Shown in pieces: positions 6,744 to 26,209 of a stretch of 26,258 bases of DNA. Origin of the DNA: a virus; IMG/VR virus record IMGVR_UViG_3300044630_004638, positions 1-26,258 of that record; one strand, given 5' to 3'. How positions within the stretch are numbered: the first letter of the stretch is position 1; every line of letters begins with the position of its first letter. A program made the position numbers and the translations under genes. The notes under the pieces are model-generated. The model was not told the origin of the DNA, did not search any database, and saw nothing but the letters and a program-made list of their open reading frames with translations.

Positions 6744-6828
6744 TTGGGTGATCTTGAGAAAAAAATAGTCATAGCTGAATTTTAGATATATATTATTATG
6801 TCAGATTTAACTATTCAAGATCACCTAA
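6744..6828 (+). repeat. Long inverted repeat enclosing the start of the FkbM gene
   Basis: Positions 6744-6757 (TTGGGTGATCTTGA) and 6815-6828 (TCAAGATCACCTAA) pair over 14 bp with a single G-U. They surround a 57-nt loop that contains the ATG at 6798. The right arm lies within codons 6-11 of the FkbM gene. This is the longest stem noticed in the window and suggests start-codon control. Confidence 0.6.
6785..6792 (+). promoter_or_regulatory. Weak late promoter-like element GATATATA before the FkbM gene
   Basis: GATATATA differs from the relaxed late motif NATAAATA at one defined position. It ends 5 nt before the ATG at 6798, the same spacing as the element at 16760-16767. No Shine-Dalgarno is present. 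AT-rich sequence makes chance matches likely, so confidence is low. Confidence 0.3.
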
Positions 6829-7640
6829 AAACATTCGAAGACCAATTATTTGTAACTGAAACAAAAGTTGGGAATATGGTCGTTTATAAAAACGACACTA
6901 TAGTAAGCAACTCGCTTACCCTGTATGGGGAATATGCTGAGGCTGAAATAGAAATTTTATCCAGATATTTAGATGAAACATCAACATATGTTGATGTAGG
7001 AACTAACGTCGGATACCATGCAATAGCAATAAACAAAAAAGCGGGTTGCCCTGTAATTGGCTTTGAACCACATCCAAATCACTTTGTAGTTGCCGCATTA
7101 AATTGTAACGAAAAGAATATCCAATTAGTTCATTCGGCAGTGGGAAATAAAAAAGGTATAATTGTACTCAAAAACTTTGATCCTGCACAAGAAGGTAACT
7201 TTGGCGATCTATGTGCTATCGACGGTGGGGGTGTTGAAGTCAACCTTGTAAAATTAGATGATGTTAAATTACCAGCTTGTACTGTTATTAAAATTGATGT
7301 TGAAGGTTATGAACTTGAGGTACTAAAAGGTGCTAGCAAAGTTATCAAACAACATAGACCTGTTATAATGTATGAAGCGATTGACATTAAAGATTGGGAA
7401 GAATGTCACAAATTTATGACTGCTAAAAAATATAAACAATATTGGATCGCAGTTAAAAATAAACCAGTAGCACCCACATTTAAAGAAACTGATATTGATC
7501 CATTTAATAATACTGGAGTAACCAATATTTTATGTGTGCCGGAAGAAAAAGAACAACCTGCTGATTTAGTTGAAGTAACACCCGGTGAACAATTTGCTGA
7601 TTGTTTAAAAAGAATGATGGGATATAAACTTGTATTCTAA
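6798..7640 (+). CDS. FkbM-family SAM-dependent methyltransferase
   Basis: A 280-aa methyltransferase. TYVDVGTNVGYHAI (63-76) is the SAM-binding motif I. GFEPHPNHF (88-96) holds the acidic motif II residue, with the EPHP form usual in FkbM proteins. KIDVEGYELEVLKGA (165-179) is the IDVEG(Y/F)E signature of the family. FkbM members O-methylate hydroxyl groups on sugars or small molecules. The substrate here is unknown; a glycan or the product of the neighbouring enzymes is possible. No Shine-Dalgarno precedes the ATG, and the start lies inside a large inverted repeat. Its stop shares a base with the next start (TAATG). Confidence 0.88.
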   Translation: MSDLTIQDHLKTFEDQLFVTETKVGNMVVYKNDTIVSNSLTLYGEYAEAEIEILSRYLDETSTYVDVGTNVGYHAIAINKKAGCPVIGFEPHPNHFVVAALNCNEKNIQLVHSAVGNKKGIIVLKNFDPAQEGNFGDLCAIDGGGVEVNLVKLDDVKLPACTVIKIDVEGYELEVLKGASKVIKQHRPVIMYEAIDIKDWEECHKFMTAKKYKQYWIAVKNKPVAPTFKETDIDPFNNTGVTNILCVPEEKEQPADLVEVTPGEQFADCLKRMMGYKLVF

Positions 7641-8467
7641 TGAAAGTCATATTAAACACAGTAATAAATTTACCTCTGGATCATTATCCCTATAGACATG
7701 ATTCTATGGTTCCAAATACTGTTACGCAGTTTTACGGAACAGATTCTCAACAACTACTTGAACGTAATTTAAAATATAGAACTAATTGGATTTACTCTGA
7801 TAAAGAAGTAACTTATCATTTTAATAGTGATGGGCTACGTATGAAAAAGAATCTTACGGAAATAGATGATAACTATATTCTGTTTAGTGGTACTAGTTAT
7901 ACATTTGCTGTAGGTTTACCTGAAGAGGATAGGTTCAGTAATACTGTAGCAAAAGAACTTAATTTAGATTTTGTAAATTGTTCCTCACCACTAAACAGTA
8001 TCAAAACACAAACTATTAATTTTTTTAATCTAATTAATAGTGGTTATAAATTACCAAAAATATTTGTGTTAGAATATCCTCCTTGCGAAGTATATTCTTT
8101 TTATACTAATGATAATTTTGTGTTATTTTATCGCAAACATATGCCGGATGAAACTTATTCTGAGCATATGAATTTGTATGATAAAATGAAAAATTTAGAT
8201 TTTTTATATCAAGAAGCAATTACTTATCAAAATATGATTCGTTCAGTATGTAAAAGGTTAAATATAAAATTAATAGAAATTAGCTTAGAGCGTGAAGATA
8301 TTTTCACAAAACAACATGTACCTAATTTAGTTAATATTAATATTAATAGTGATGATATAAACTTTTGCTATGCTAGAGATTATAGATTAGTTGGTGATAG
8401 ATATATAGGTCATCCGGGCATAGGAATACATAACAATATTCACGATATAATACTAGAATCATTATGA
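7640..8467 (+). CDS. SGNH/GDSL-like hydrolase
   Basis: A 275-aa protein with the layout of SGNH esterases found in surface-glycan loci. NSDGLRM (62-68) matches the N-terminal 'NSxGfR' motif that often precedes block I. YILFSGTSYTFAVGL (79-93) matches block I, with S86 as nucleophile and Thr where GDS has Asp. Near the C-terminus, HPGIGIHNNIHD, preceded by DRY, gives the block V His. Such enzymes remove or transfer O-acyl groups. The central part is poorly conserved, and I cannot point to the Gly and Asn of blocks II and III with confidence. It is coupled to both neighbours (TAATG and ATGA). An inactive relative is possible. Confidence 0.6.
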   Translation: MKVILNTVINLPLDHYPYRHDSMVPNTVTQFYGTDSQQLLERNLKYRTNWIYSDKEVTYHFNSDGLRMKKNLTEIDDNYILFSGTSYTFAVGLPEEDRFSNTVAKELNLDFVNCSSPLNSIKTQTINFFNLINSGYKLPKIFVLEYPPCEVYSFYTNDNFVLFYRKHMPDETYSEHMNLYDKMKNLDFLYQEAITYQNMIRSVCKRLNIKLIEISLEREDIFTKQHVPNLVNININSDDINFCYARDYRLVGDRYIGHPGIGIHNNIHDIILESL

Positions 8468-9108
8468 GTAGCTTAATCTTATATACATCCGGAAGCACTA
8501 AAGAACCAAAAGAAGTGATACACTCTTGGGAGAATATATACCGTTATGCTCATAATAGTATAGATGAGATGCAATTATCTAATAAAGATATAGTATTGAA
8601 TGTGTTTCCTGCTAATGTAATTGCAAATTATACAATAACAGCTTTACCTGCGCAATTAGCAGGTGCAAAACTTATATCAGCAAATTTTGACCCCTACACT
8701 TATATCAAATTGTTTAATAAATATAGACCCACAGTTATATCTTTAATTCCCAGACATTACGAATTATTAAAACATACTAGAGAATTTAATAATTTAAATA
8801 TGAGTTGTGTTAGATATATGGTTACTGGAAGTAGTACAATTACGCAAGAGATGATTGATGATTTTAGAAATAAAGGTGTTAATTTAGTAGCTAATTGGTA
8901 TGGAATGACAGAAATGCCACCGCCAATTTTTATTGGATATAATAGCCCACAGTTTGACTTTACTAGCAAACATCATATTGAATTCACTGACGAAGGTGAA
9001 TGTATTATTAATGGGTTTAGCACAGGAGATATCTTTGATGTGACTAACAAAGTTTTTTTAAGAAGAAAGAATTTACCAAATGGATCAACTTGGAAAAACA
9101 ATTTTTAA
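8464..9108 (+). CDS. Reduced ANL-superfamily adenylating enzyme (AMP-binding core)
   Basis: Only 214 aa, against 450-600 for usual acyl-CoA synthetases or NRPS adenylation domains. It begins directly at the phosphate-binding A3 motif (LYTSGSTKEPKEV, 6-18). It then has a recognisable A5 motif, WYGMTE (145-150), and the A7-like STGD (186-189). It stops around where the hinge motif A8 would be (FLRRKN), so the N-terminal subdomain and the C-terminal domain with the A10 lysine are missing. In A3, Lys and Glu replace usual glycines. It may still bind an acyl-adenylate, act with a partner in trans, or be degenerate. The intact frame and ATGA coupling argue against simple decay. The 3' end overlaps the next gene by 29 bp in another frame. 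Confidence 0.75.
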   Translation: MSSLILYTSGSTKEPKEVIHSWENIYRYAHNSIDEMQLSNKDIVLNVFPANVIANYTITALPAQLAGAKLISANFDPYTYIKLFNKYRPTVISLIPRHYELLKHTREFNNLNMSCVRYMVTGSSTITQEMIDDFRNKGVNLVANWYGMTEMPPPIFIGYNSPQFDFTSKHHIEFTDEGECIINGFSTGDIFDVTNKVFLRRKNLPNGSTWKNNF

Positions 9109-9655
9109 ACAACTAACAAATGATGACATTCCTCTGATAGAAGAATTTTGCATAGAATGTTCTAAATTGGGGTATGAAAATAACATATCATTAGAAGCGA
9201 TGAAGTTTGACAGTGCTATTTTCTTTGGAGCATTTAAAAATAACCAATTGTTCTCATTAGCAGGAGTTCACAAGTTCCCTGAAATTAATGACCATGCTTA
9301 TAGATGTTTATTTAGAGGAGCCCAGTTACCGGGGCACACACCTAAATGGAGCATGAATCTATTTGAAAGTGGTATACATTTTAGTCAATTTATGTATATG
9401 CAAATAAAACATATACTAACGTTTGACGAATCTGCTGAATTTTATATTACAACTAATATTGATAATTTAAAAGCAGGAGCAAGTACTAGATTACATAAAA
9501 CAATGATGCCTAGGATGGCGGAAAAAGGTTATTGGAATCTAGTAAATGCTAATATGTTATTATACAGTACACAACAAAGTGTATGGAAAATAAATGTTAA
9601 TAACTATATAAAAGACAGAGAAATCTATTTAGATAAATTAAATCAAATTATATGA
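9080..9655 (+). CDS. Unassigned 191-aa protein, possibly acyltransferase-like
   Basis: A soluble mixed alpha/beta protein. The first half (IFKQLTNDDIPLIEEFC, then IFFGAFKNNQLFSLAGVH) has the rhythm of a GNAT acyltransferase: a helix after the first strand, then a beta hairpin with a Gly turn. I see no clear acetyl-CoA Q/RxxGxG/A loop, so this is only a suggestion. FRGAQLPGHTP (residues 75-85) and the later TTNIDNLKAGAS segment look like active-site loops. If it is an acyltransferase, the preceding adenylating gene, which it overlaps by 29 bp, would make sense as a partner. The last 18 bases overlap the end of the convergent halogenase gene. Confidence 0.6.
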   Translation: MDQLGKTIFKQLTNDDIPLIEEFCIECSKLGYENNISLEAMKFDSAIFFGAFKNNQLFSLAGVHKFPEINDHAYRCLFRGAQLPGHTPKWSMNLFESGIHFSQFMYMQIKHILTFDESAEFYITTNIDNLKAGASTRLHKTMMPRMAEKGYWNLVNANMLLYSTQQSVWKINVNNYIKDREIYLDKLNQII

Positions 9656-10813
9656 TTTAGCTTTTGCTAGTATTCGGTATGAATACTCTGGAAAAGTCCA
9701 TTTTTCATTTGGAACTTTTAATGTTGTTTTATTCCCAAACATATTCCAATAGTCATTATTATATGGACCGTTTGGATAATACATCCCTACATAATATGCA
9801 GTTTCTTTGTAAATTTTGTTCCAAAGTTTATTAAATTTTCTCTCAGCATTAATATCACCTGCTAATTTTTCTACTAACTTCATTGGCGCTAGTATCAAAA
9901 ATAATCCTGTTGATTCTAACGGATCTAAAAATCCAGAACTTAATCCCAAACTAACTACATTCTTTTTCCATGGTGCATTATTGAATCCATTATTAAATGG
10001 TACTACAAATATTTTATCTTGTTCTATTCCCGGAGCACGTTCAATTAATTCTTGTTTTGCCTCTTCAATCGTTAAATGGTCTTTGTTAAATACATATCCA
10101 TTTCCTGTTCTATGTTGTAAAGAAATTCTCCATCGCCAACCTTTCGTCATACCAAAAGTTTCAGTATAAGGTAATGGCTTTTCATTTTCTAAATATTTTC
10201 CAGGTCCTGCAACTGCACAATTATTAACTAATAAATCATGCTTTACGTAGTTTGCTCCTAATGAGTTTCTTATAATTGATTTAAAGCCAGTACAATCAAT
10301 GTATAAATCTGCGGTATATTTACCTTTTAATCCTACTACTTCTTTTACACCATCATCATCTACTATTACATTTGCAACTTCATCAATGATATGTTTTACG
10401 CCATTTGGAATGGCTGATATGTCTCTGCATAAAATTCCCAATTTATTAGCATCTAAATGATATGCGTGGCTATGTTTTTTGGGATTGATAGTATATTCAT
10501 TCATATGAAAATCTTGTAGTTTTTCCTCACTCTCATCCTCACAAAATCTATGTATCCAAGTGTTACCTTCTTTGTTCCATCCAGTATGTTTGATGCAATA
10601 CTTGCGTACAGCACCACAATAGTCAAATAAATTTTGCTCGGTAATACCGACATGTTCTATAAAATCGTTAATTGTTGGCCAAGTACTTTCACCCACACCT
10701 ATAATTGGTATTTTATCACTTTCAATTAAGGTTATATCAAATTTTTTATTTTGTGCAAAATGCGCGGCTACCATCCACCCTGCGCTACCCCCACCTACTA
10801 TTAATATTTTCAT
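9638..10813 (-). CDS. Flavin-dependent halogenase, tryptophan halogenase family
   Basis: A 391-aa enzyme of the FADH2-dependent halogenase family, which uses O2 and halide to halogenate (usually aromatic) carbon. The N-terminal ILIVGGGSAGWMVA (3-16) is the dinucleotide fold with the family's GxGxxGW form. GVGESTWPT (39-47) follows. GWRWRI (225-230) matches the GWxWxIP signature except for Ser in place of Pro. K71 aligns with the catalytic lysine (K79 in PrnA), and E300 in GFLDPLESTG (294-303) aligns with the catalytic glutamate. It is shorter than PrnA (538 aa), like the known marine viral halogenase VirX1 of a cyanophage. The substrate is unknown and there is no flavin reductase in the window, so the host would supply FADH2. 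It starts by ATGA coupling to the upstream oxygenase gene. Confidence 0.9.
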   Translation of the reverse strand: MKILIVGGGSAGWMVAAHFAQNKKFDITLIESDKIPIIGVGESTWPTINDFIEHVGITEQNLFDYCGAVRKYCIKHTGWNKEGNTWIHRFCEDESEEKLQDFHMNEYTINPKKHSHAYHLDANKLGILCRDISAIPNGVKHIIDEVANVIVDDDGVKEVVGLKGKYTADLYIDCTGFKSIIRNSLGANYVKHDLLVNNCAVAGPGKYLENEKPLPYTETFGMTKGWRWRISLQHRTGNGYVFNKDHLTIEEAKQELIERAPGIEQDKIFVVPFNNGFNNAPWKKNVVSLGLSSGFLDPLESTGLFLILAPMKLVEKLAGDINAERKFNKLWNKIYKETAYYVGMYYPNGPYNNDYWNMFGNKTTLKVPNEKWTFPEYSYRILAKAKSYNLI

Positions 10814-12024
10814 AATTGTATCTCGTTGTTAATTAGTTCTTTAATTCTTCCAATTGGAATTTTGAATAACAGATGAATTCTATCAGAATCACCTTGATTA
10901 TCCGTACCGTGCAATCTATTAGTATTAACTAGATATGCTTTGCCTATCTCTAATACATATTTATTTTGTTCAAATACGAAATAACTTTCTTGGTTAACTT
11001 CAATAGGAATATGTATTCTAATATTTATATAATTGTCTGTGTGCAAATGTATTTTGCTGTTTGGAGGATGAGCAGTTATTACAAGTTCTTCTATAAAAGG
11101 TAGTTTTTCTATTAATTTTTCTGCAAACCCGAAATATAGTTTAGTTTTGTTCGTGGCATATGGTAATTTAGCATCCGGGGGGATAGTTTTGTCATTGAAC
11201 ACCGGAGATGGTATATCAATATTTTTTAAATTAGTTTGTACTGCGTATCCATAAATACCCACACTATCATCATATCCCGGAGGATATGATTTTGGATCTT
11301 TTGACAAATCTTTTTTTGGCGCTCCCCATTTTAAATATTCATAATTGTTTTTGACTATTTTATAATAATCTGTCAATTCGGTTAAATTAAACTTGAACTT
11401 TGGTAATTCAAAAATATCAAAATCAATTTTTGTTGGATCTAAAATATAGTCATTATTTAAAATTTGGTCAACGTCTTCTTTTTTAATTTTAAAAATAAGA
11501 TGTACACGATCATTGTCTCCAAAATTCTCAGTGCCATGTTCAATCGTTGTGTTAATTAAATATGCTTTACCTACTTCTAAACAATATTTTTTATTACCAA
11601 ATACAAAATAACTATTATCATTTGTTATTATAGGTATATGTATTTTTACAAATTCATCATTGTCTATATGCTGTTGAATTACAGTTCCAGGAGGATGTGC
11701 GCTAATAACAGTTTGTCTTACACTAGGAAATGAGTCAATGATTAACTTACCCATTCCAAAATATAAATCGGTTATTGTGTCAAAAAACCCGGTTACTTCC
11801 TCGTCATGTTTAATATCGTAAGGCGGACAAGGTAAGTTTGGGTTTTTTAAGTTACTTTGTATGGCCCAACTATAGATCCTATCAACTAAATGATCTTTTG
11901 TGTCAATGTTATTAGGTGTCCATTTTAACTGTTGAAAATTATTTACGATTTGATTATAGTATTCTAGTAAATGTTTTTGTGACACGTGTACGTTTGGCAA
12001 TTCTTTAATGTCAAAATTTAACAT
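10810..12024 (-). CDS. Tandem Fe(II)/2-oxoglutarate oxygenase-like protein (two fused domains)
   Basis: A 404-aa protein made of two similar halves of about 200 residues, each starting FDI.ELP and each with a double-stranded beta-helix of the aspartyl/asparaginyl hydroxylase-like type. Half one: H119 and D121 (QQHIDND), H163 (IEHGTEN) and R173 (NDRVHL). Half two: H328 and D330 (HLHTDNY), H372 (LHGTDN) and R382 (SDRIHL). HxD...H is the iron triad, and the Arg would bind 2-oxoglutarate. Both sites look complete, so both may be active. Shared stretches such as Q(S/T)NLKN and AHPP also align between halves. A strong ribosome site (AGGGAGG, 5 nt upstream) marks this start. Substrate unknown. Confidence 0.85.
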   Translation of the reverse strand: MLNFDIKELPNVHVSQKHLLEYYNQIVNNFQQLKWTPNNIDTKDHLVDRIYSWAIQSNLKNPNLPCPPYDIKHDEEVTGFFDTITDLYFGMGKLIIDSFPSVRQTVISAHPPGTVIQQHIDNDEFVKIHIPIITNDNSYFVFGNKKYCLEVGKAYLINTTIEHGTENFGDNDRVHLIFKIKKEDVDQILNNDYILDPTKIDFDIFELPKFKFNLTELTDYYKIVKNNYEYLKWGAPKKDLSKDPKSYPPGYDDSVGIYGYAVQTNLKNIDIPSPVFNDKTIPPDAKLPYATNKTKLYFGFAEKLIEKLPFIEELVITAHPPNSKIHLHTDNYINIRIHIPIEVNQESYFVFEQNKYVLEIGKAYLVNTNRLHGTDNQGDSDRIHLLFKIPIGRIKELINNEIQL

Positions 12025-12461
12025 TTAACCTCCCTTAACATACTAAAAACATGTTTGTTTGAGTGGTCTGATGGTACAGGTAATTTATTCATATAATCTT
12101 CTATCGCACCCGACCTTGAACTACCCTTCACACAATACAAATAAACCGTAGAATTAACATCAATGTTATCAATAAATTCAACTAACGTTTCTGCTTGTTG
12201 GTTATTCATTGCAATAGCATTTATAGTAATGGTAGTATTATTATAATATGGTATTGTTTTAGGACCTGTATGTTCTACATCATCAAAATAAAGATTAATT
12301 ACATTTTTGTGATTCTCTTTGAAATAAGGAATAGAATGTATTGACCCTGAGGAATTTATACAAATAAACGAATACGGATAACTATCAACGTTATCGTCAT
12401 TGATATTCATTTCAGTCATTAAAGTTTTAAACTTTTCTTGTGATAATCTTATAATGTTCAT
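12018..12461 (-). CDS. Cys-based (dual-specificity-like) phosphatase
   Basis: A 147-aa protein with a CX5R phosphate-binding loop: VYLYCVKGSSRSGA, C110 to R116, followed by Ser and Gly as in dual-specificity phosphatases. The residue before Cys is Tyr where most have His. LYFDD near 58-61 supplies a plausible general-acid aspartate. The family removes phosphate from Ser/Thr/Tyr, nucleotides or lipids. It sits between oxygenase genes and overlaps the upstream gene by 35 bp, so it is probably co-expressed. The start follows a weak GGA; the alternative Met15 (12419) has no visible ribosome site. A phosphate-binding but inactive protein cannot be ruled out. Confidence 0.65.
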   Translation of the reverse strand: MNIIRLSQEKFKTLMTEMNINDDNVDSYPYSFICINSSGSIHSIPYFKENHKNVINLYFDDVEHTGPKTIPYYNNTTITINAIAMNNQQAETLVEFIDNIDVNSTVYLYCVKGSSRSGAIEDYMNKLPVPSDHSNKHVFSMLREVKC

Positions 12462-13107
12462 TTAATTTTTCCACATCTTCTGTCCATATTTTACCGTATA
12501 GATGAATTCGGTAACTATTTCCTTTATTCTCAACACTATGAGGCAAAGTTGTATTTACCAAATAAGCATATCCAGGCTCCATATGTATTTCTTCACCATC
12601 GATGATCCACGTGCTGTTATCATTTGTAATAATAGGAATATGTATTCTAATTTTGTCAGGTGAGTCTTGATGAGTAATTAATTTTGTACCAGGGGCATGT
12701 TCTGTCACTAACCATTTTTTACTACGCACCGGTAGATTTTTTATTAACTCTAACGCATACCCATCAAAACATTTTCTAGGGTTCAACTTGTCATTGTCAT
12801 TATCCTGATATTCCGGTTTTGCACAACCATGTTCAAATGGCTTGGGACCAACATCACTGTTGTTCCAACACAATGTATAATATGCAGTTGAATCTGGTAG
12901 TATATGTCCTGTTACACCGGTTGGGTCGCTAATAGGAAATTGCCATATATGATGATTTTCTCCTATAATAAATTTCCAATCTTTATAATTTTTTTCTAAA
13001 TCATAATACCAAGTAAGTAATTTATCAATATCTACTGAGAAAAGTTTTACAACCTTAAAACCTAAATCTAATGGATTGTGGGCTTCTATATAACGTTTCA
13101 TTTTCAT
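12427..13107 (-). CDS. Fe(II)/2-oxoglutarate oxygenase-like protein
   Basis: A 226-aa member of the local hydroxylase family. H146 and D148 (THQDSP), H190 (LPHSVEN) and R200 (YRIHL) give the iron triad and the 2-oxoglutarate arginine. Between them is the shared IRIHIPI strand, then an 'F/W..dg' turn and GYAYLVNT. The N-terminal 120 residues are a specific cap, which includes an HGCAKPEY segment and several cysteines (C80, C95, C113). It is closest in pattern to the two halves of the tandem gene downstream. ATGA overlap with the upstream oxygenase gene; 35-bp overlap with the phosphatase-like gene. Substrate unknown. Confidence 0.85.
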   Translation of the reverse strand: MKMKRYIEAHNPLDLGFKVVKLFSVDIDKLLTWYYDLEKNYKDWKFIIGENHHIWQFPISDPTGVTGHILPDSTAYYTLCWNNSDVGPKPFEHGCAKPEYQDNDNDKLNPRKCFDGYALELIKNLPVRSKKWLVTEHAPGTKLITHQDSPDKIRIHIPIITNDNSTWIIDGEEIHMEPGYAYLVNTTLPHSVENKGNSYRIHLYGKIWTEDVEKLNEHYKIITRKV

Positions 13108-13850
13108 AATTTTAAAATGTCAAATATCTTATCTTCATGTATATCTGCAATAATATTAGCTCTAGTAGTTGGCCCAAAGTTTGTTGTACCGTGTATGATT
13201 TTAGTATTAATTAAATATATTGAACCTGGCTCAAATTTATATTCTCTATCATAATTTTCACCCCAGTAAAATTTACTATTATCAATTGTCATGGGTATGT
13301 GAAGTCTAGCCATATATCCATCTGTGTGTAAGGGAATAACATGTCCGGTTAAATGTTCTGTTATTCTAGGATTGAATATATACGGCGTTAGCCACTTAGT
13401 TATATTTTCCCACTCCCCGAACATATATTGGTTTAAGTAAATATTATTTAAATAATTAAAATCTTTGATTAAGTCTCCCGCATCATTATAATATATTCTA
13501 AGTTCTGGAAAATAATCTAAGTTTGCTGCCCATGCCGGAGGTAAAGGAACATCTTGTTTGTTAAACCAGGTTAGACTATATGAATTTTGAAGTAACATAT
13601 ATTCATTTTTTAGAATCCATTGGTAGTTGTTTGTATCTGTAGTAAATTTATTGTTTACTGATTCTTTGATATATTTGGTACAAGTTCTAAAATTAAATTT
13701 TAGATGTTCTAAATTTTTTGATACAGAGAAATACCATTCTCTCAATTTCTTAACATCTATCTTTTTGTTCAGTTTGATTACGTCCCATTCATTGGTTAAT
13801 ATAAAATCTTTGGTAATGGCATCTGTATTATAATTTTCTATTAATCTCAT
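13104..13850 (-). CDS. Fe(II)/2-oxoglutarate oxygenase-like protein
   Basis: A 248-aa paralogue of its neighbours. H175 and D177 (PLHTDGY), H220 (IIHGTTN) and R230 (TTRANI) form the expected triad and co-substrate arginine, with the shared strands ARLHIPM and SIYLINT between them. The N-terminal region (1-60) resembles that of the next gene (13847-14557): both begin with an acidic ENYN/KNYD start, an EWD or DWD.I.LN segment and a WY helix. That suggests these two duplicated from each other recently. ATGA overlaps on both sides. A hydroxylase role is inferred from the fold. Confidence 0.84.
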   Translation of the reverse strand: MRLIENYNTDAITKDFILTNEWDVIKLNKKIDVKKLREWYFSVSKNLEHLKFNFRTCTKYIKESVNNKFTTDTNNYQWILKNEYMLLQNSYSLTWFNKQDVPLPPAWAANLDYFPELRIYYNDAGDLIKDFNYLNNIYLNQYMFGEWENITKWLTPYIFNPRITEHLTGHVIPLHTDGYMARLHIPMTIDNSKFYWGENYDREYKFEPGSIYLINTKIIHGTTNFGPTTRANIIADIHEDKIFDILKL

Positions 13851-17837: not shown

Positions 17838-18273
17838 AGAAAATTTAGAAAAACGAAGAAAAGTATACAAAGAGAATAACAAGTATATAAAAATTTGGGA
17901 CGATATACAACCAAGTTGGATATCTAATCATGTTAAATTATTACGTGAATATTGTCCTGAATTAATTAATGATTATAGTGATAATTGGATTAGTTACAAT
18001 GAGATTGAAGGTACTCCCGTAAGTAAATTAGAACACAGTAACGAATTGATCGATAAAGTATATGAATTCTGCTTAGGTTCATTACTAAAAACTAAACCCT
18101 ATGTTCACGGAGACTGGGTTGTATCTAACATAATTATGAAACCTGATAATAGTTTTTATTTGATTGATTGGGATAACATCGGTGTATATTCTGAAATAGA
18201 AGTTATAACTAAGTTACACAATGACTTGCATTCAAGTTTTGGAGATAAATTTTATGACGCCACAGGCATTTAG
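17824..18273 (+). CDS. Reduced aminoglycoside/choline-kinase-like phosphotransferase
   Basis: Only 149 aa, about half the length of a usual APH-type kinase. I start at ATG 17824 rather than at a TTG nine bases earlier. YVHGDWVVSNIIM (93-105) matches the APH catalytic loop HGDxxxxN, with D97 as base and N102. LIDWDN (113-118) matches the metal-binding IDWD motif. A short N-terminal strand pair with KYIKIW (20-25) may keep the ATP-binding lysine. The alpha-helical substrate-binding lobe is largely absent. The target could be a small metabolite or sugar made by this locus. The overlaps with both neighbours (14 and 20 bp) show tight co-translation. Activity is inferred from the motifs. Confidence 0.75.
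   Translation: MILIKENLEKRRKVYKENNKYIKIWDDIQPSWISNHVKLLREYCPELINDYSDNWISYNEIEGTPVSKLEHSNELIDKVYEFCLGSLLKTKPYVHGDWVVSNIIMKPDNSFYLIDWDNIGVYSEIEVITKLHNDLHSSFGDKFYDATGI
18241..18244 (+). promoter_or_regulatory. Ribosome binding site that sets the start of the first propeller gene
   Basis: GGAG lies 9 nt before ATG 18254. The longer candidate start at 18221 has no such site and would add 11 residues that read as an out-of-frame shadow of the kinase-like gene. Confidence 0.5.
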
Positions 18274-19477
18274 TTACGGTACATTGGGTTCAAATAACAT
18301 GGTTTATTTAGCACCATATGGCTTAAACGAATCGATAAACTATATGCTAAAGATTGACCCCAATACATATCAAACAACACGTATATATTTGGATGTAGAT
18401 ACTTCTTTTGAAAAATACACTACGGGAATATTACATAAAAATAAATTATATTTTCTACCCTACAACGAAAGCAAAATACTTATTGTAGATTGCAATACTG
18501 ATGAAGTGTTATACATTAATTTAGGTCTAACTCATCGAGGAAAATATAATACTGCACATGTCTATAATGATAAAATTATTGCATTACCCTACGGAACTGA
18601 TGATGAATATGATTATTGTTTAATATTAGATACGATCACCCAAACATTCATCTTAAAAAATATAGTATGCCCGATAAACGACAGAAAAAAATGGCATACT
18701 ACGCAGTTATTAGAAAATAAAATATACGGAGTTCCTAGAGGTGAGAATTTTAAAAAGCCTTATTTTTCATATATGATTGAGTTTGATTGTGACAGTTATG
18801 ATTACGCATTAACAGATTGGAGTGAGTTGTGGTCTGACATAGATAATCAACCGCACATATCTAATAAGAAATTTACAACACTGGCTAAAAATAATAATAA
18901 ACTCTATGCCCCTCCTTATAGCGAAAATAATAATTTTGATTTGTTAGCTAAATTTGATAAGACTTGGACCTTTGAGCATACACATTTAACAAAAACCAGT
19001 CGTAAGTATTATGGGCACACTGTAGCAAATAATGGTAAGATATATTTTCCTCCTGCAGGGCACGAAGAAAATTGGAGTGAAATGTTAGTTATTGATAGTA
19101 ATACTGACATATGGTATACAATTGACTTAAAGATTGGTAAAGAGAGTAAAAAGTATTTTAGTGGCGTAGAATATAATAGTAAAATATATTATATACCAAG
19201 AGGTGGTTGTGTATGCGAACCCGAAGAATCATGGAAAAAATTTGGGGACTTAGCTGAAGTATTAGTTATAGATACTGAAACGGATAACCATTATACTATA
19301 GATATTTCACACTATTTCATTGACAATACTACAATTGAGAAGTATAATCAATGTTTATTAGTTAATGATAAAATATTTGCATTCCCGTATGGAGAGTCAG
19401 ATAACTTCCATACTATGTTAGTATTTGATACAGTAACAGAACAAATAGTTAAAACTATGAATTTGAATGAAGTATAA
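18254..19477 (+). CDS. Eight-repeat beta-propeller-like (Kelch-like) protein
   Basis: A 407-aa protein built of about eight repeats beginning near residues 15, 62, 105, 155, 215, 261, 308 and 371. The repeat core is N.KIY..PYG followed after 8-15 residues by .LVIDT.T, for example KIIALPYG...CLILDTIT and KIFAFPYGES...MLVFDTVT. Repeats of 43-60 residues with this strand pattern indicate a beta-propeller resembling Kelch or YncE types. No catalytic motif or signal peptide is seen. Propellers commonly bind proteins, peptides or sugars, so a substrate-binding or scaffold role is possible, as is a receptor-binding role. The next gene is a paralogue. Confidence 0.75.
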   Translation: MTPQAFSYGTLGSNNMVYLAPYGLNESINYMLKIDPNTYQTTRIYLDVDTSFEKYTTGILHKNKLYFLPYNESKILIVDCNTDEVLYINLGLTHRGKYNTAHVYNDKIIALPYGTDDEYDYCLILDTITQTFILKNIVCPINDRKKWHTTQLLENKIYGVPRGENFKKPYFSYMIEFDCDSYDYALTDWSELWSDIDNQPHISNKKFTTLAKNNNKLYAPPYSENNNFDLLAKFDKTWTFEHTHLTKTSRKYYGHTVANNGKIYFPPAGHEENWSEMLVIDSNTDIWYTIDLKIGKESKKYFSGVEYNSKIYYIPRGGCVCEPEESWKKFGDLAEVLVIDTETDNHYTIDISHYFIDNTTIEKYNQCLLVNDKIFAFPYGESDNFHTMLVFDTVTEQIVKTMNLNEV

Positions 19478-20606
19478 AGCGTTTCAAGATTGGTACCGTG
19501 AAGGGAACATTAAGCATCTATTGTTGTACAAACACAATGGATATTTAATCAGCCCTCCGTTTGCTACGGAAAGATGCCCTGAGTATAATAAGATTATGAA
19601 ATACGACGGCACAGTGAGTTATATTGATACAGATATTCCACCGTGTGTTAGCAAAACTAACTCTGTTGTTGAAGTTGATGGATCAAGTTGGTTTATACCC
19701 TATGGCATATACGATGAGTTTAATTGTGTACTACAATTAATCGATGACACTCCTATTAACCATATAATTGAGTCAATGGGCAAAGGTCAATTTTACAGCG
19801 GTGCAAGTGACGGGAAACAAGCATTTAGTTTTCCTTTAGGATATAGTGGAACACAATATGCATTGCATATCAACGATAATATACCTAGATTGATACCGTT
19901 TGAACATACTGTTCCTAAAGCACACATGGGTACAGTTTACTGTAACAGTAAATTTTGGTCAATGCCTAGGGGAGATGAACCTGGCTACACTGACTTGATG
20001 AGTTTTGACGGTGAAAACTTTGAATACTATTCAATCCCGGTAAACTCTATAATCACTAGAAAATATACTGATTTGGTAAGTGTTGGCAACACTCTCTATT
20101 CATTGCCTTTTGGTGAGACAGCAGGACTAAATGAAGTGGTAGAGTTTGATACTGAAACAAAGCAGATTCATTTGCATAAATTAGATGTTCCTGATTTTGC
20201 TAAGAAATATAACTGTATGGTATTGAATGGTAATCATATCATAGGGTTGCCTTACGGTGATGAATATTGTGAGGATAGTAATTGGGGTATTGTGTTCAAC
20301 GTAGTTACTAAAGAAAGCAAATGTTTTGATATTGGTATTACCCACGGTGGCAAATATAGATATCGAAGCGGTATTACATATTACAATACAGCAGTTTTCT
20401 TTCCCGGTGGCACACCACAATGCCCTATAATTGCAGTTAGTACTGCGGGAGATATAGTACACCGACAACATTATCCTAACTTAATGTTTGGTCGACCTAT
20501 CATACATAACCAAAAGATTCATGTTATTGCATATGATATTCATACAGAACAGCAGTATCTATATATGTTTGACGAAGCATGGACAGAGACGGTGATTGAA
20601 TTATGA
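19467..20606 (+). CDS. Second eight-repeat beta-propeller-like protein
   Basis: A 379-aa paralogue of the preceding protein. Repeats start near residues 24, 71, 116, 159, 207, 255, 306 and 347; clear ones are SSWFIPYG, KFWSMPRGD, TLYSLPFGE and HIIGLPYGD. The first and last repeats are more diverged, as is usual where a propeller closes its ring with strands from both ends. It overlaps the previous gene by 11 bp and the next by 4 bp (ATGA). Two full propellers in series suggest duplication followed by specialisation, perhaps to bind two partners. No enzyme motif seen. Confidence 0.75.
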   Translation: MKYKAFQDWYREGNIKHLLLYKHNGYLISPPFATERCPEYNKIMKYDGTVSYIDTDIPPCVSKTNSVVEVDGSSWFIPYGIYDEFNCVLQLIDDTPINHIIESMGKGQFYSGASDGKQAFSFPLGYSGTQYALHINDNIPRLIPFEHTVPKAHMGTVYCNSKFWSMPRGDEPGYTDLMSFDGENFEYYSIPVNSIITRKYTDLVSVGNTLYSLPFGETAGLNEVVEFDTETKQIHLHKLDVPDFAKKYNCMVLNGNHIIGLPYGDEYCEDSNWGIVFNVVTKESKCFDIGITHGGKYRYRSGITYYNTAVFFPGGTPQCPIIAVSTAGDIVHRQHYPNLMFGRPIIHNQKIHVIAYDIHTEQQYLYMFDEAWTETVIEL

Positions 20607-21511
20607 AACATTTATATGATAATTATTTTATTAAGCCCGCTAATAGCATTATCCATGATCCATTTAGATTACATCTATTAGAATCTAATATCGTCACTGA
20701 TGTTATTAGTATGAAGAAAAAAGTAGATGTTCAGGATGAGTTTCCTGAAGTTTATACACAATGGATTAAAAGTTCTAAATTGAATAATTTATTGGGTTTA
20801 GAATCATTTCCATATCGTCATGTTAGTTTAGGTGTAACACAAGCAATTGATGATTTTCTTTTGTATTGTTTAAAAGAAAAACTAAGACTACGAATTTATA
20901 AAGGTGAATATCCTTATATCAATCAAATTGTCAATGAAGATTTAATCTTTATTGAAGATGAAAAACTATGTACAGGAGATGCTGTACTGATAAGCGCACC
21001 ATTCAGTGCTACAGGTGAACTACATCCTAAATGGTGCGAAACAATTAAAATATGTAATGAACTTAGCATTCCAATGTTTGTTGATTGTGCGTTCTTTGGT
21101 ACATGTTATGATTTAACTATATCATTAGATGAACCTTGCATTGATACAGTAGCATTCAGTCCTACGAAGGGATTGAACACTGGATATTTTCGCACAGGAT
21201 TAGCTTACACTAAACGAGGGTATCGTAAGACTACGTTTGAAACACTAACTAAATGGCATCATGGCATACATTTTCATACAGCTATGGCTATGAACATTAT
21301 GCAAAAATATGATCCTGATACTGTTCCTAATATCTATAGGTCTGTGCAAGAACAAATATGTTCACATTATGGTCTCACTCCAAGCAAGACTGTACATCTA
21401 GCACTAGGTGGTGAGGGCTGGGAGTATTTTACTAGAGACGGTGTATGTAATAGAATTGGGTTGCGTATCCCAATCGCAGAATATTATGCTGGTAAAGATT
21501 TACGCAAATAA
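20603..21511 (+). CDS. PLP-dependent aminotransferase-like protein (fold type I)
   Basis: A 302-aa protein related to class I/II aminotransferases. MFVDCAFFGT (158-167) supplies the PLP-pyridine aspartate D161 after a strand. AFSPTKGLNTGYFRTG (184-199) supplies the Schiff-base lysine K189, with the usual S..KG...G.R.G context. VSLGVTQAIDDFLLY (75-89) matches the G-(V/N)T-A helix that holds the cofactor phosphate. At about 100 residues shorter than typical members, it has a reduced C-terminal small domain, but ends GLRIPIAEYY, which could retain the carboxylate-binding Arg (GLRI). Substrate unknown; amino-group transfer or loss is likely. Its last 28 bases overlap the end of the convergent radical SAM gene. 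Confidence 0.8.
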   Translation: MKHLYDNYFIKPANSIIHDPFRLHLLESNIVTDVISMKKKVDVQDEFPEVYTQWIKSSKLNNLLGLESFPYRHVSLGVTQAIDDFLLYCLKEKLRLRIYKGEYPYINQIVNEDLIFIEDEKLCTGDAVLISAPFSATGELHPKWCETIKICNELSIPMFVDCAFFGTCYDLTISLDEPCIDTVAFSPTKGLNTGYFRTGLAYTKRGYRKTTFETLTKWHHGIHFHTAMAMNIMQKYDPDTVPNIYRSVQEQICSHYGLTPSKTVHLALGGEGWEYFTRDGVCNRIGLRIPIAEYYAGKDLRK

Positions 21512-22398
21512 ATGTCACTGAGACAATTACAAGATTCTTTTTGACATACAATAGTATTTGTGGGTAACGTAAAGTTAGTTATAGTCCCTATACTTCCACC
21601 TTGCTCACAGTTTGCTCGTACAATATTTCCATAAAAATCTACGTTAATCATATCTAATCCTGCATGGCATTCCCAACCTTTATGCCTATTTAATTTATTC
21701 AGTATTAGTTTATTTGCAGTAGTATATTCACTATCAAATAATATATCTCCACGATGCACTTTACTGTCATCTACTTTTCTAAAATATGGCCAATTTTCTA
21801 AAAACTTTTTCTGTTCAACCGTATATTCAGATGGTTTATTTGTCATGTTATTAATGTCTGAAGTTTTGTCTAGTATTACTTTGGGCCAGATAGTTAACGA
21901 ACTATTCTCATAAAGATGTTTAGCTATACTAACCATCTCATCAAAGTTTTCAGCACTTATCATTAAATTGACAATAACTGGGCCAGTCATTACTTTACTA
22001 ATGTTTATAAAATGTTCAATATTTGCATACTCTTTGTGATAGCTTAACATTAAGCCATCTGTATACTGATTAATTTCTTTGAAATATTCTATATCACGTG
22101 ACCCATTAGATAAAAAACTAAAACTGTTATTATAACTCTTTGCTGTTTGTGCAAACTCTAAAAAATGTTTCCAATAAGTAGGCTCACCGCCCGATATACG
22201 AAAACATATATCTTTAAAAGGTATTTGCTTATTAATTTCTTTTACAAAGTTTTTAACATTGTCAATATCAGGCCAACCACTTGACCCGTCATGAAACATA
22301 CTTGGGCAATAGCTACAACGATAGTTACATTTGTTGCTTAGATCCCATGTAATTAAGAACCAATTTTCTTTTAGTTTGTCAACATATTCTATCTTCAT
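21484..22398 (-). CDS. Radical SAM protein with C-terminal Cys cluster
   Basis: A 304-aa radical SAM enzyme. C24, C28 and C31 (NKCNYRCSYCPSM) bind the 4Fe-4S cluster, and RISGGEPTYW near residue 70 is the GGEP motif. The C-terminal 65 residues hold at least five cysteines: WECHAG, RANCEQGG, VCQKESCNC. This is the pattern of a SPASM or twitch auxiliary-cluster domain, including the 'D..GNI.R' turn (DFYGNIVRANC). Such enzymes frequently act on peptides or proteins. It is the last gene of the leftward operon, with ATGA coupling to the oxygenase-like gene before it. Target unknown. Confidence 0.87.
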   Translation of the reverse strand: MKIEYVDKLKENWFLITWDLSNKCNYRCSYCPSMFHDGSSGWPDIDNVKNFVKEINKQIPFKDICFRISGGEPTYWKHFLEFAQTAKSYNNSFSFLSNGSRDIEYFKEINQYTDGLMLSYHKEYANIEHFINISKVMTGPVIVNLMISAENFDEMVSIAKHLYENSSLTIWPKVILDKTSDINNMTNKPSEYTVEQKKFLENWPYFRKVDDSKVHRGDILFDSEYTTANKLILNKLNRHKGWECHAGLDMINVDFYGNIVRANCEQGGSIGTITNFTLPTNTIVCQKESCNCLSDIYLRKSLPA

Positions 22399-23051
22399 TG
22401 TGCCATTGAATGTTTAATCAATAAATCATGTGTGCGTTGATTTAATTTAACTGTTAGTATCAAACTGTATAGATTATCACTGAAGCTAAACACACTATGA
22501 TTCAATTGAAAATTTACAAAGTATAAATGATTTCGTTCTGGTCTAAATGGTTGGTCGTGTAACATTTGTACATAATTAAAGTCACTACAGTTTCCAAACA
22601 CTAATAACAATCTAACATATTCGGGTGCAACACCCGCAAAATCTCTGTGTGGTGGAAAGAATCCTCCCTTGTCTACTCGCAATAAGTGTACACGTCCAAT
22701 ATCAGGCGCAAATATATCTACTAATCTAGCTAACTCTGGAATCGTGTGATAAACTTCAGTTGGTGTTGTGAAGTTTTCTTCCTTCATTTCAACATCATGG
22801 TAACGTTGCATATAACCAAAACTATTTAAATGATAGTTATCCATTACATCACCTGTGTGACTAGTTAATGGTAGTCCCCAACGATTGTTCACTGTGTCTT
22901 TCTTAGCGTTGTATGGACACCAATTGTCATTGAATTCTTTTAATTGTTCTTTGACTTCATGTTCATTAATATACAAATTCATCTTGGCATAGCTACCTAG
23001 ATTACATAAGCTAGTCCATAACATTTGTCTTTCAATTTCTTCTTGTGTCAT
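22395..23051 (-). CDS. Divergent Fe(II)/2-oxoglutarate oxygenase-like protein
   Basis: A 218-aa protein with the same beta-helix pattern as the oxygenases at 10.8-16.8 kb. FFPPHRDFAG (131-140) supplies H135 and D137. HLYFVNFQLNHSVFSFSDN (175-193) supplies H185 after the strand that reads AYLVNT in its relatives. The co-substrate arginine expected about 10 residues later is not seen (NLYSLILT), so it may use another Arg, bind a different co-substrate, or be altered in activity. It lies between two radical SAM genes with ATGA overlaps on both sides. Assignment to the superfamily is likely; 2-oxoglutarate use is less sure. Confidence 0.65.
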   Translation of the reverse strand: MTQEEIERQMLWTSLCNLGSYAKMNLYINEHEVKEQLKEFNDNWCPYNAKKDTVNNRWGLPLTSHTGDVMDNYHLNSFGYMQRYHDVEMKEENFTTPTEVYHTIPELARLVDIFAPDIGRVHLLRVDKGGFFPPHRDFAGVAPEYVRLLLVFGNCSDFNYVQMLHDQPFRPERNHLYFVNFQLNHSVFSFSDNLYSLILTVKLNQRTHDLLIKHSMAQ

Positions 23052-24337
23052 AAGTTTCTCAATTCTGTAAATGTTTCTCTAAAATTTGTGCCACGAGTTT
23101 TATCTGTGACTTCTAAATATTCTATTGCTTGTGGGAGTTTATGACTCCAGTCTTCTGATTGAATATAGTTAATCATACCCAACCAACGTTTACGTCCGTA
23201 TATGTCATTATCAAATTGTGTGTTATTATAACTATCTAAAAATTGCGTTAAGTTTTTAACTGCCACATCTTTAAACTCTTTGGGTAATACACGCATGTTT
23301 AAATAGCTTGGATAGCATACTAGGTGCATGCCAGTCACTCCACCGGAACCCTCACTCATGTGAATCTTTTTATAGTTCTGACTTAATTTCCAATGTGCTA
23401 ACTCATGCATTGTCGTGATATTTAATAATTGCACCGCACACGCAATATTAACTATGATATTGTCCGGAGTATCGTCTAATCGTTGTAGACTGTTAAGCAT
23501 ATCATTCCATTTACTAGGGTAACGTATGTATTCATTGCGTTCAGCTACACTATCAATACTGATATTGAATCTAACTTCTTTAAAGTGATTCCATAACTCA
23601 AATATTTTTTCAGATAGTTCTAGTCCATTGCTATTATAGCGTAAAATACAATTACTGCTATTACCACTTTCTATCATAAACTCTAATATTTTATAGTGTT
23701 CTGGAATTAATAATGGTTCACCACCTGCAAAATACATCTCTTTAATGTTGTGTGCTTGATTACGCATTGTATCTAAAAATGATCCTTTTTGATACCATGT
23801 ATAATCCATTTTTCTATCCCAGTGTTGGTCATTTTTTAACTCAAAGATTTTATATTGTGGATATTGTATCTTCCAGTCTTTAATCCAACTACTACTGTCA
23901 TGTGGACTACACATTACGCATTTTAATTGACACAAATTACCTAATCGCAAATCAAAGTAATTAATATTCAGTGGAGCAGTACCGTCGGGTTGTGTGTTGG
24001 GAATCAGTGTACTCAAGTCAATGCGTTTATTCCACTCAATCGTTTCCCATTCACGTTTGCTTGGGATACCTTGTGCTTCTTCATTGTAGCACTTCATGCA
24101 CGATTGTGGTTTTTCACCATTCATCATTTTAACACGAACATCTTTCATGTAACTACTGTTCCATACTTCTTCCATAGTATGATGACGTAAGTTCATTTTA
24201 ATACCATCGTGTGTTACTAATCCTGCTTCTTTGTTCTCATCTTCTCCTGATCCACTAGCGTTTGCGGTGGCACATAATCTAACATCTCCGTTAGGTCGGG
24301 TAGCGATATGCATCCAAGGTAATGGGCACCATGTCAT
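23048..24337 (-). CDS. Radical SAM protein with N-terminal SPASM/twitch-like Cys domain
   Basis: A 429-aa enzyme. MTWCPLPWMHIATRPNGDV with C4, then C22 (RLCA) and C80/C83 (SCMKCYNEE), forms an N-terminal auxiliary-cluster-like domain with the 'C..PW....PNGdv..C' start typical of SPASM segments. The radical SAM core follows: C136, C140 and C143 (LCQLKCVMCSP), and FAGGEPLL further on. The domain order and the MC-SP cluster end match the gene at 16797-17837, so the two are paralogues in different operons. ATGA couplings link it to both neighbours. Likely a peptide- or protein-modifying enzyme by family; no substrate shown. Confidence 0.86.
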   Translation of the reverse strand: MTWCPLPWMHIATRPNGDVRLCATANASGSGEDENKEAGLVTHDGIKMNLRHHTMEEVWNSSYMKDVRVKMMNGEKPQSCMKCYNEEAQGIPSKREWETIEWNKRIDLSTLIPNTQPDGTAPLNINYFDLRLGNLCQLKCVMCSPHDSSSWIKDWKIQYPQYKIFELKNDQHWDRKMDYTWYQKGSFLDTMRNQAHNIKEMYFAGGEPLLIPEHYKILEFMIESGNSSNCILRYNSNGLELSEKIFELWNHFKEVRFNISIDSVAERNEYIRYPSKWNDMLNSLQRLDDTPDNIIVNIACAVQLLNITTMHELAHWKLSQNYKKIHMSEGSGGVTGMHLVCYPSYLNMRVLPKEFKDVAVKNLTQFLDSYNNTQFDNDIYGRKRWLGMINYIQSEDWSHKLPQAIEYLEVTDKTRGTNFRETFTELRNL

Positions 24338-25326
24338 GTTCGTTCAACCCACTGTGCGTTAAGTTTATCAAACGATCCGCAGTGTTTACTACAAATCTTT
24401 AATCCACATGTAGTCCAAGATTTTTCAATACTAGCAAAATATCCACTGTCAAATATTTCTTCTAATGTTTGTTTTGTAAGGCTAGGCCAATAACCAATAG
24501 TATCTAAATATTCATATCGTATTGGTGATGATGGTTGATCATGTTTAATGTTTATCCAACAACACGGAGTTACTGTTCCATCTGCGCTTACATATATTTG
24601 ATTATATTCAAGCACCTTACAATTTATTTTTGGTAGCACTTCTAGTTCAGATTGCTTGATTTTTGGAATCATGTTTTTACTATTCAAGGTTGGATACAAT
24701 ATGTTTATTGTCTTTCCCTCATCATTAAGAACATTTAATTTACCATTTCTAAATCTACTTGTGTGTTTAACTGTAAATTCACCGAACCCAAGTTCTTTAC
24801 TAAGTTTCCTACAATCTTCAACTTGGTGTTCATTGTGTTGAAATACAATCATATCCCACCTAGCATTACCACCGTGGTTAATAAATGTTTTTGCATTTTT
24901 TATTATTTTGTTAAAGTCTGTATTAATCCGATATAAACTATGTGTGTCAACTAATCCATCTATTCCAAATATAACACTTACATTTAATTCTGCTAAATCT
25001 TTCCACCATTTATCGTTCCGTCCACTACCATTTGTATGCATGTTTAGTGTTATAGTTTGATTATTTTCTCTAAGATATCTAAAAATTTCTGTAGTATCCT
25101 TAGCAATAATAGGATCACCTAAATTTCCGCACATATATAAATTGTTTAATTGTTTTATAAAATCTACAGGAAACCATTCTTTAAATTGTTCAAGTGTGAT
25201 TTCAGTAAGTTCAATAAATGGATTAAGTATCCCACCTTGCATGTTACGAGCACACATGGGACATTTTGCTTGACACTTGTTAGTTATTTCTAAATGTACG
25301 GATTTGATATCACTTAATGAATACAT
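24334..25326 (-). CDS. Radical SAM protein with C-terminal SPASM-like domain
   Basis: A 330-aa enzyme. C18, C22 and C25 (NKCQAKCPMCARN) bind the SAM-cleaving cluster. MCGNLGDPI near residue 64 stands where others have GGEP, an altered form seen in several SPASM proteins. The C-terminal region has NCKVLEYNQIYVSADG, TPCCWIN and a last group TTCGLKICSKHCG, giving about six cysteines for an auxiliary cluster. It is the conventional order, unlike the gene downstream. AAGG lies 9 nt before the ATG. It overlaps the upstream gene by 17 bp and couples to the next by ATGA. Confidence 0.86.
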   Translation of the reverse strand: MYSLSDIKSVHLEITNKCQAKCPMCARNMQGGILNPFIELTEITLEQFKEWFPVDFIKQLNNLYMCGNLGDPIIAKDTTEIFRYLRENNQTITLNMHTNGSGRNDKWWKDLAELNVSVIFGIDGLVDTHSLYRINTDFNKIIKNAKTFINHGGNARWDMIVFQHNEHQVEDCRKLSKELGFGEFTVKHTSRFRNGKLNVLNDEGKTINILYPTLNSKNMIPKIKQSELEVLPKINCKVLEYNQIYVSADGTVTPCCWINIKHDQPSSPIRYEYLDTIGYWPSLTKQTLEEIFDSGYFASIEKSWTTCGLKICSKHCGSFDKLNAQWVERT

Positions 25327-26209
25327 TCATTTTTGCCTTTTCTAATAAATTTGGAATCATATCTGTTGTAAAATATGTTGTTTTAATTTCAATAATGTTT
25401 TTATATGTAGCTAATAATCTAGTCCAGTTACTACGTTCACTCACCGACAATTCATCCCAACCGGTTGGCATAATCAATTTGCCTACTAAAAGATATCCTA
25501 TAGCCATATTCAAATCAAATTTACTATTCGGTACATTTTTCTTATACCACTTTACAAATTTGTTCATTCTATAAAACGGGCTTGGGCTTGGAGGTCTAAA
25601 CACCATATATCCACCTGAATTAATTATAGTCTCGGGTTGTAATTCACCGTTTGTTATAGCTTCAATATCATTATCCGATTGTAATTCTAACCAATGCTTT
25701 CCCTTATGTGAATAATTAATACACAAGTCACCAAAATTTCTGTCCGGTGTAAAAAACAAATAATCTTCTGGTTCTAATAGAATTTCTTCACCATCAGTAA
25801 ATTCAAAGTAAGCATTGATGCGAGGATCTTGATTTATTTGTACTTTATATTGCTCATAAGCATGTATTGCATCATTTAATTCAATCCATAAATTATCTTT
25901 TATTGGAGAGCAATGAAGTTTGTTTAAGTCTGAATTCTTATCAATATGTTCTAACTTCATAGAATAGTTAACATTGATTTTGTCAATTGTGTTATTAATT
26001 CTAATTATTATTTCATTCTCATCTTCCTTAGTAATATAAAAACTAGTGTCACTATGGAACTCAGTATTTTTATCAATTTGTGCTTTGATGAGATTATAAA
26101 ATTTATGTGCGGCATCCCATTCATATATCAAATAACTTAACGTAATGGTATCATTTCCATCACTGAATACCACTTGAATGCACGGATTGTTATTATACTG
26201 TTCTATCAT
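25310..26209 (-). CDS. Unassigned 299-aa protein, first gene of the leftward radical SAM operon
   Basis: I do not recognise the family. The N-terminal 130 residues are rich in strands and charged residues, with regular alternation such as TITLSYLIYEWDAAHKF and IIIRINN. The middle contains EFTDGEEILLEPEDYLFFTP and NFGDLCINYSHKGKHWLEL, which could be a second beta domain. The C-terminal third is helical (WYKKNVPNSKFDLNMAIGYLL, broken into shorter helices). DLCINYSHKGKH could hold a metal or phosphate site, but this is unproven. No ribosome site is visible before the ATG. Its overlap with a radical SAM gene suggests a partner or substrate-handling role. It is too large for a usual RiPP precursor. 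Confidence 0.75.
   Translation of the reverse strand: MIEQYNNNPCIQVVFSDGNDTITLSYLIYEWDAAHKFYNLIKAQIDKNTEFHSDTSFYITKEDENEIIIRINNTIDKINVNYSMKLEHIDKNSDLNKLHCSPIKDNLWIELNDAIHAYEQYKVQINQDPRINAYFEFTDGEEILLEPEDYLFFTPDRNFGDLCINYSHKGKHWLELQSDNDIEAITNGELQPETIINSGGYMVFRPPSPSPFYRMNKFVKWYKKNVPNSKFDLNMAIGYLLVGKLIMPTGWDELSVSERSNWTRLLATYKNIIEIKTTYFTTDMIPNLLEKAKMNVFIK

Follow-up and report, generated by a model that had tools for sequence, protein, structure and literature searches.

A conserved block of tailoring-enzyme genes in T4-like jumbo phages is a candidate virus-borne modification pathway

The window analysed here is the whole of the linear IMG/VR record IMGVR_UViG_3300044630_004638, 26,258 bases of viral DNA. 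Positions 6798-26209 hold a block of 22 genes, the core of which recurs in the same order in related viral loci. An earlier reading of this DNA, made without database searches, had proposed that the block encodes a dedicated pathway with no known product. Synteny, co-occurrence, catalytic motifs, relocation of the block and shared late-promoter-like spacers all support a dedicated pathway, and the lack of a known product stands. The block is very probably one functional unit. The explanation we think best, and hold tentatively, is one virus-borne pathway of modification, expressed late and carried by jumbo T4-like phages in the form of a cassette.

Results

A conserved core and variable accessories

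We used the propeller-like gene o23 as the anchor for collecting related loci. Its 94 relatives in viral contigs gave 80 loci, which with an earlier set made 81, or 46 when non-redundant; the denominator of each presence count is the number of loci whose contig reaches far enough. Six genes were present wherever the contig was long enough: o22 (42/42), o24 (46/46), o26 (44/44), o27 (44/44), o28 (42/42) and o16 (34/34). Near-universal were o29 (34/36), o20 (34/39), o21 (33/39) and o19 (31/37), and a methyltransferase-like family just past the window edge (c15) was found in 42 of 46 loci. The core consists of the two propeller-like proteins, the kinase-like protein, the radical S-adenosylmethionine (SAM) enzymes o26, o28 and o29, the 2-oxoglutarate (2OG) oxygenases o16, o20 and o27, o19 and the methyltransferase-like protein beyond the window. 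Its order and strand are almost always kept, at 40-75% identity. Co-conservation in related phages was the check that the earlier reading had set itself; scattered single genes were not what we found, the core being present in 34/34 to 46/46 loci.

Around this core lie a halogenase, an ANL adenylating enzyme, a GNAT, a protein tyrosine phosphatase (PTP)-like protein, a pyridoxal phosphate (PLP)-enzyme-like protein, SGNH and FkbM proteins and further radical SAM enzymes. The additional 2OG oxygenases were common in the case of o14 (30/34) and o18 (29/34) and less so in that of o17 (11/34). Occurrence varied for the GNAT o12 (26/33), the PTP-like o15 (24/34), the halogenase o13 (23/34) and the ANL o11 (20/31), and was rarest for o30 (8/35), the PLP-like o25 (6/44) and the FkbM o9 (4 of 24 clustered contigs). 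FkbM, SGNH, halogenase, PLP and o30 are accessory rather than core. By eye, a 192-residue tail-fibre-like protein was seen inside the block in 8/46 loci, and an asparagine-synthase-like protein with a GGVDT motif in 5/46.

Two genomic sites

The carriers are T4-like: gp23 was found in three carrying contigs, and the capsid proteins of two carrying phages (G001 and G017) share 65-71% identity with those of jumbo phages such as Vibrio phage 2.275, PA5oct, GAP32, CBB and Phosso. In four contigs (G007, G014, G013 and G017) the block comes after the gene families c31-c32-c33, mostly with c60, on the side of giant virion-type proteins of 4-5 kilo-residues. The 260-kb contig G001 has c31-c33 at 167-171 kb without the block, which lies instead at 29-46 kb, beside the endolysin, o7 and PAAR genes as in the window. 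Because the block adjoins c31-c33/c60 in four contigs and lies elsewhere in G001, it moved as a unit. We then compared 45 loci with c31-c33 and at least 5 kb downstream. Only 3/45 held the block; in the remaining 42 the site was filled differently, frequently with distant genes of the radical SAM, ANL or GNAT kind. Found at two sites and mostly absent from c31-c33 backbones, the block therefore behaves as an exchangeable cassette.

Tail-fibre-like and giant virion-type genes adjoin the block in several phages. The giant proteins, of about 3,900-5,400 residues (family c53 and its counterpart in G001), are L162-L163 in G007, L170 in G014, L175 in G017 and G001:117559, and are found either to one side of the island or at another place in the phage that carries it. 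It is possible that the c53-type proteins are virion adhesins and candidate substrates.

Oxygenases and radical SAM enzymes

The earlier reading had counted seven 2OG-oxygenase domains in six genes and four radical SAM enzymes, and both counts hold. An HxD...H motif is present in every one of the seven domains (twice in o14, and in o16, o17, o18, o20 and o27). Pfam Asp_Arg_Hydrox was above its cut-off in o14, o16, o18 and o20 and below it in o17. No Pfam match was found for o27, which is assigned by HxD..H in 20/20 family members and a weak similarity to the o20 profile (hhalign probability 70%, E 4e-5). In G001 the two domains of o14 are separate genes. All four radical SAM proteins (o21, o26, o28 and o29) have CxxxCxxC; o28 and o29 carry Pfam SPASM, and o21 and o28 passed the NCBIfam N_Twi_rSAM cut-off. 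We rejected o26 as a prokaryotic viperin, as its NCBIfam viperin score was 47 bits against a cut-off of 180; its PADLOC pVip match (E 2e-15) covered the protein partially, and the PADLOC scan gave partial, weak viperin-like matches only. Catalytic motifs are kept across loci in the 2OG, radical SAM, kinase, PTP and ANL families.

Group-transfer enzymes

The flavin halogenase named by the earlier reading is well founded (PF04820, E 1e-78). It has the FAD-binding GxGxxG and retains the positions of Lys71, Glu300 and WxWxI, including the catalytic Lys and Glu of flavin-dependent halogenases. At 391 residues, against mostly 500-550 in solved tryptophan halogenases, o13 lacks the C-terminal region, and to judge from this short length free tryptophan is probably not its substrate. 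The ANL enzyme, described before as reduced, is minimal throughout its family, with 210-224 residues in 20 loci and no C-terminal domain. The motifs expected of the FkbM, phosphatase-like (CX5R) and kinase-like (HGD) proteins were found. The PLP and SGNH assignments held only as motif or profile similarity: o25 has a Pfam E of 0.08 and o10 no Pfam match. Two genes went unmentioned before. One encodes a GNAT fold (o12; AF2 pLDDT 90, with PDB matches). The other is the core gene o19, with a product of about 493 residues from a conserved start at M25 (AF2 pLDDT 74.5); the fold search gave only weak resemblance to glycosyltransferases (GT-A) and methyltransferases.

Propeller-like proteins

Both propellers of the earlier reading look propeller-like in sequence, and o23 and o24 are distant homologues of each other (hhalign 99%, E 6e-18). 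In o23 the lysines K65, K108, K157, K217, K262, K311 and K374 are invariant or nearly so, spaced by 43-63 residues. In o24 the same is true of K63, K106, K151, K199, K247, K296 and R343, spaced by 43-49 residues. P(Y/R)G loops accompany these regular Lys/Arg residues in both proteins. We infer seven predicted blades with a basic ring of Lys/Arg that would suit an anionic ligand.

A divergent late-promoter-like spacer

The spacer between the divergent genes o20 and o21 contains TATAAATA at 16785-16792 (+) and AATAAATA at 16767-16760 (-). The reported late promoter of S-PM2 is NATAAATA (PMC2984593). In 34 homologous divergent spacers, which share ancestry, TAAATA towards o21/o22/o23 occurred in 27, against 3.2 in shuffles that kept single-base composition only, and towards o20 in 15, against 4.9. 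Similar motifs lie 15-37 bp upstream of several virion-type genes of the same phages. These motifs suggest that the island is probably expressed late in infection.

Architecture of the island and its neighbours

The genes are listed in Table 1. Non-coding DNA totals 42 bp and genes overlap at 19 of the 21 junctions, which bears out the start-codon overlaps that had been described.

Table 1. Features of the 6798-26209 island
Feature	Coordinates	Strand	Basis
o9 FkbM methyltransferase, accessory, edge	6798..7640	+	PF05050 E 7e-17
o10 SGNH-like hydrolase, accessory	7640..8467	+	profile match to second island SGNH-like family, 99%
o11 minimal ANL adenylating enzyme	8464..9108	+	PF00501 E 5e-23; A3 and A5 motifs
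o12 GNAT-fold acyltransferase	9080..9655	+	AF2 pLDDT 90; PDB GNAT matches E 5e-7
o13 short flavin-dependent halogenase	9638..10813	-	PF04820 E 1e-78
o14 tandem 2OG oxygenase, two domains	10810..12024	-	PF05118 in two stretches; two HxD..H
o15 dual-specificity-phosphatase-like (PTP-like)	12018..12461	-	CX5R kept 16/16; weak Pfam, below cut-off
o16 2OG oxygenase, core	12427..13107	-	PF05118 E 1.5e-11
o17 2OG oxygenase	13104..13850	-	PF05118 E 0.002, 18.2 against cut-off 22.6 bits; HxD..H
o18 2OG oxygenase	13847..14557	-	PF05118 E 1.5e-7
o19 core protein, no family assigned, weakly GT-A-like and methyltransferase-like	14558..16039	-	weak Foldseek matches
o20 2OG oxygenase, core	16032..16754	-	PF05118 E 1.7e-9
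bidirectional o20/o21 spacer	16755..16796	.	late-promoter-like motifs
o21 N_Twi radical SAM	16797..17837	+	NF033640, 244 bits against cut-off 170
o22 C-lobe-only kinase-like, core	17824..18273	+	HGD....N motif; RIO1 E 1e-4
o23 seven-bladed-propeller-like, core	18221..19477	+	invariant Lys per predicted blade; anchor of loci
o24 second propeller-like, core	19467..20606	+	hhalign to o23 99%, E 6e-18
o25 PLP-enzyme-like, accessory	20603..21511	+	SPTKG...R motif; Pfam E 0.08
o26 radical SAM, weakly viperin-like, core	21484..22398	-	PF04055
o27 2OG-like oxygenase, core	22395..23051	-	HxD..H; hhalign to o20
o28 N_Twi radical SAM, N-terminal SPASM, core	23048..24337	-	NF033640, 404 bits
o29 radical SAM, C-terminal SPASM, core	24334..25326	-	PF04055, PF13186
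o30 accessory protein, no family assigned	25310..26209	-	occurrence among loci only

The first 6.6 kb of the window are phage backbone, with nrdA, nrdB, glutaredoxin, PAAR and cell-wall hydrolase genes and a gene for a 678-residue protein for which cultured phages yield no known relatives. At the other end the island is cut off by the window edge, because the near-identical contig G035 (L169:7926-12332) runs on with four further genes, for a radical SAM enzyme (c20), the methyltransferase-like c15, an SGNH-like protein (c149) and a second radical SAM enzyme (c17). Between the endolysin and FkbM genes is a 37-residue open reading frame (ORF; 6625-6738, +) with a strong Shine-Dalgarno sequence and one hydrophobic stretch. 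Its product shares 51% identity with a hypothetical protein from Pelagibacter phage Mosig, and given this relative it is probably a small phage membrane protein, not a precursor.

Relatives of the core proteins are scarce elsewhere. Neither o23 nor o19 had a match among 50,697 phage records, o7 was likewise unmatched in cultured phages, and o16 and o28 had two weak partial matches each in cultured phages. No o23 or o19 was found in 84,980 prokaryote genomes, in scans that used two short peptide patterns each and could miss distant homologues.

Discussion

The pathway we propose would begin with two divergent operons firing from a shared late promoter along with the virion genes. The radical SAM enzymes would put in carbon-centred changes and the oxygenases would hydroxylate, with the accessory enzymes halogenating, acylating, phosphorylating or methylating the same shared soluble substrate, which the propellers, with their predicted ring of seven conserved Lys/Arg, may hold or present. 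The substrate could quite possibly be a phage-made protein, such as a tail adhesin or the propellers themselves. We favour this because expression appears to be late, virion genes lie nearby and precursor, carrier and membrane genes are missing, and a phage protein modified in this way might show altered receptor binding. It is conceivable, if rather doubtful, that the block is a virus-only machine with no cellular counterpart, in which radical SAM and 2OG enzymes work with two Lys-ring propellers and swappable accessories tune the chemistry, making a previously unseen class of remodelled virion protein, or else a new polymer or cofactor.

Several observations weigh against a single late pathway acting on a phage protein. 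The propellers are the only universal non-enzymes. The loci are of common ancestry and the co-occurrence counts are not independent. Distance-matrix (mirror-tree) correlations among core genes are moderate, mostly 0.3-0.7, which indicates that genes are exchanged individually; being only moderate, they are not taken as proof of co-inheritance. Radical SAM pairs of the o28/o29 type are also seen at loci that have no propeller gene within 10 kb (L092, L099, L100 and L089), which suggests that there are related yet different islands. In many spacers TAAATA is separated from the start codon by 4-7 nt, an unusual distance for a promoter with a ribosome-binding site. Finally, some copies of the block are flanked by glycosyltransferase-like genes, and these flanks, with the weakly glycosyltransferase-like o19, would suit a glycan substrate.

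Such a glycan could belong to the host, with the pathway remodelling a cell-surface glycan or its precursor to give superinfection exclusion resembling serotype conversion. The region is like the pelagimyophage host-recognition cluster, whose glycosyltransferases have been suggested to change the surface of the host (PMC7029224), and FkbM, SGNH, GNAT and the glycosyltransferase-like neighbours fit the same picture. However, the core is made up of soluble enzymes and the two propeller-like proteins; it lacks a membrane protein, a flippase, a polymerase and any enzyme of sugar-nucleotide metabolism, and its families share no hydrophobic stretch that is conserved. The bulk of the block is radical SAM and Asp/Asn-hydroxylase-type enzymes, and late expression would be late for exclusion; we consider host glycan remodelling unlikely but still a serious rival. 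Release of a diffusible small molecule or peptide at lysis, the other serious rival, is somewhat less likely still, even though the enzyme mix is that of natural-product tailoring, with ANL, GNAT and PLP enzymes and a halogenase that keeps its catalytic positions, and the accessory genes vary as they do in biosynthetic clusters. The SPASM/twitch maturases of radical SAM clusters for ribosomally synthesised and post-translationally modified peptides (RiPPs) are present, but the short precursor peptide gene is not: in nearly all contigs the core contained no ORF under 110 residues, and the window block has no room for one. Carrier proteins (PF00550) were found in none of the islands and in 1/12 records outside the island; the one example is the acyl-carrier-like L257 (G007:42542-42736). 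The window block has no assembly-line or transporter gene, and the truncated ANL points the same way. The sequence-only reading had left open a small molecule or a modified protein, peptide or glycan, and what has now become unlikely within that range is a RiPP whose precursor has its own gene, or an assembly line with carrier proteins.

It could also be that there is no pathway, and that a hypervariable island has gathered unrelated auxiliary genes. The other contents at the same site in 42/45 related phages, and the occurrence of single families elsewhere, would be expected of such an island. The constancy of the core, the order and strand kept across divergent copies and the presence of the whole block at two sites would not, and we regard this explanation as very improbable and already largely refuted. 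Phage DNA hypermodification involves 2OG, radical SAM, glycosyltransferase-like, kinase-like and PLP enzymes, types that are also represented here. That the block hypermodifies phage DNA or nucleotides is nevertheless extremely improbable, as nothing of the TET/JBP type scored over the cut-off in 12 carrying contigs, the window block has no base-modification gene and its expression appears to be late.

Returning to the cassette of a late modification pathway, the region in which it sits is variable and, by analogy, resembles the pelagimyophage host-recognition cluster, which lies between the VrlC gene and gp14, is non-syntenic and rich in glycosyltransferases, and for which radical SAM cassettes are mentioned (PMC7029224). 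The core genes of pelagimyophages include one for an Asp/Asn hydroxylase (PMC7029224). Both regions are large variable islands beside tail or structural genes of T4-like phages. Unlike that cluster, the block is syntenic, occupies two positions, has propellers together with radical SAM and 2OG enzymes as its basis, and is found in jumbo phages. A T4-like marine phage, TARA_ERS488813_N000010, is likewise unusually rich in radical SAM genes, with 12, which were interpreted as serving Fe-S metabolism (PMC5332604). The passage on these genes describes no conserved cluster, and the likeness to the block is by description only.

The halogenase o13 belongs to the same phage flavin-dependent family as VirX1 (PDB match E 6.5e-39) and the cyanophage PrnA-type enzymes; it differs in length (391 residues against 531 in the VirX1 chain) and in lying inside a conserved cluster. 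Halogenases of cultured phages are 27-35% identical to it among the matches listed. With radical SAM RiPP and natural-product clusters the island shares several SPASM/twitch enzymes, oxygenases, group-transfer enzymes and divergent operons. In contrast to them, it is viral and lacks a precursor gene, a carrier domain, a protease and a transporter, while two propellers and a kinase C-lobe form part of its core. A tailoring pathway like this one, long, syntenic and of many steps, is not known to us from any phage, and the literature searched did not describe the conserved block. Individual parts are already known, and there is a substantial chance that the chemistry of the block is categorically new.

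These phages invest about 20 kb in a block whose enzyme types imply a need for iron, SAM, 2-oxoglutarate, oxygen, flavin adenine dinucleotide (FAD) and ATP, and dozens of contigs of uncultured phages, drawn from many metagenomes, contain it. The block is a source of new enzymes of the radical SAM, 2OG and halogenase types. Should it make a product, it would be a virus-borne natural-product pathway. If it decorates virion proteins, it would add to host recognition a chemical layer that is invisible in the gene sequence.

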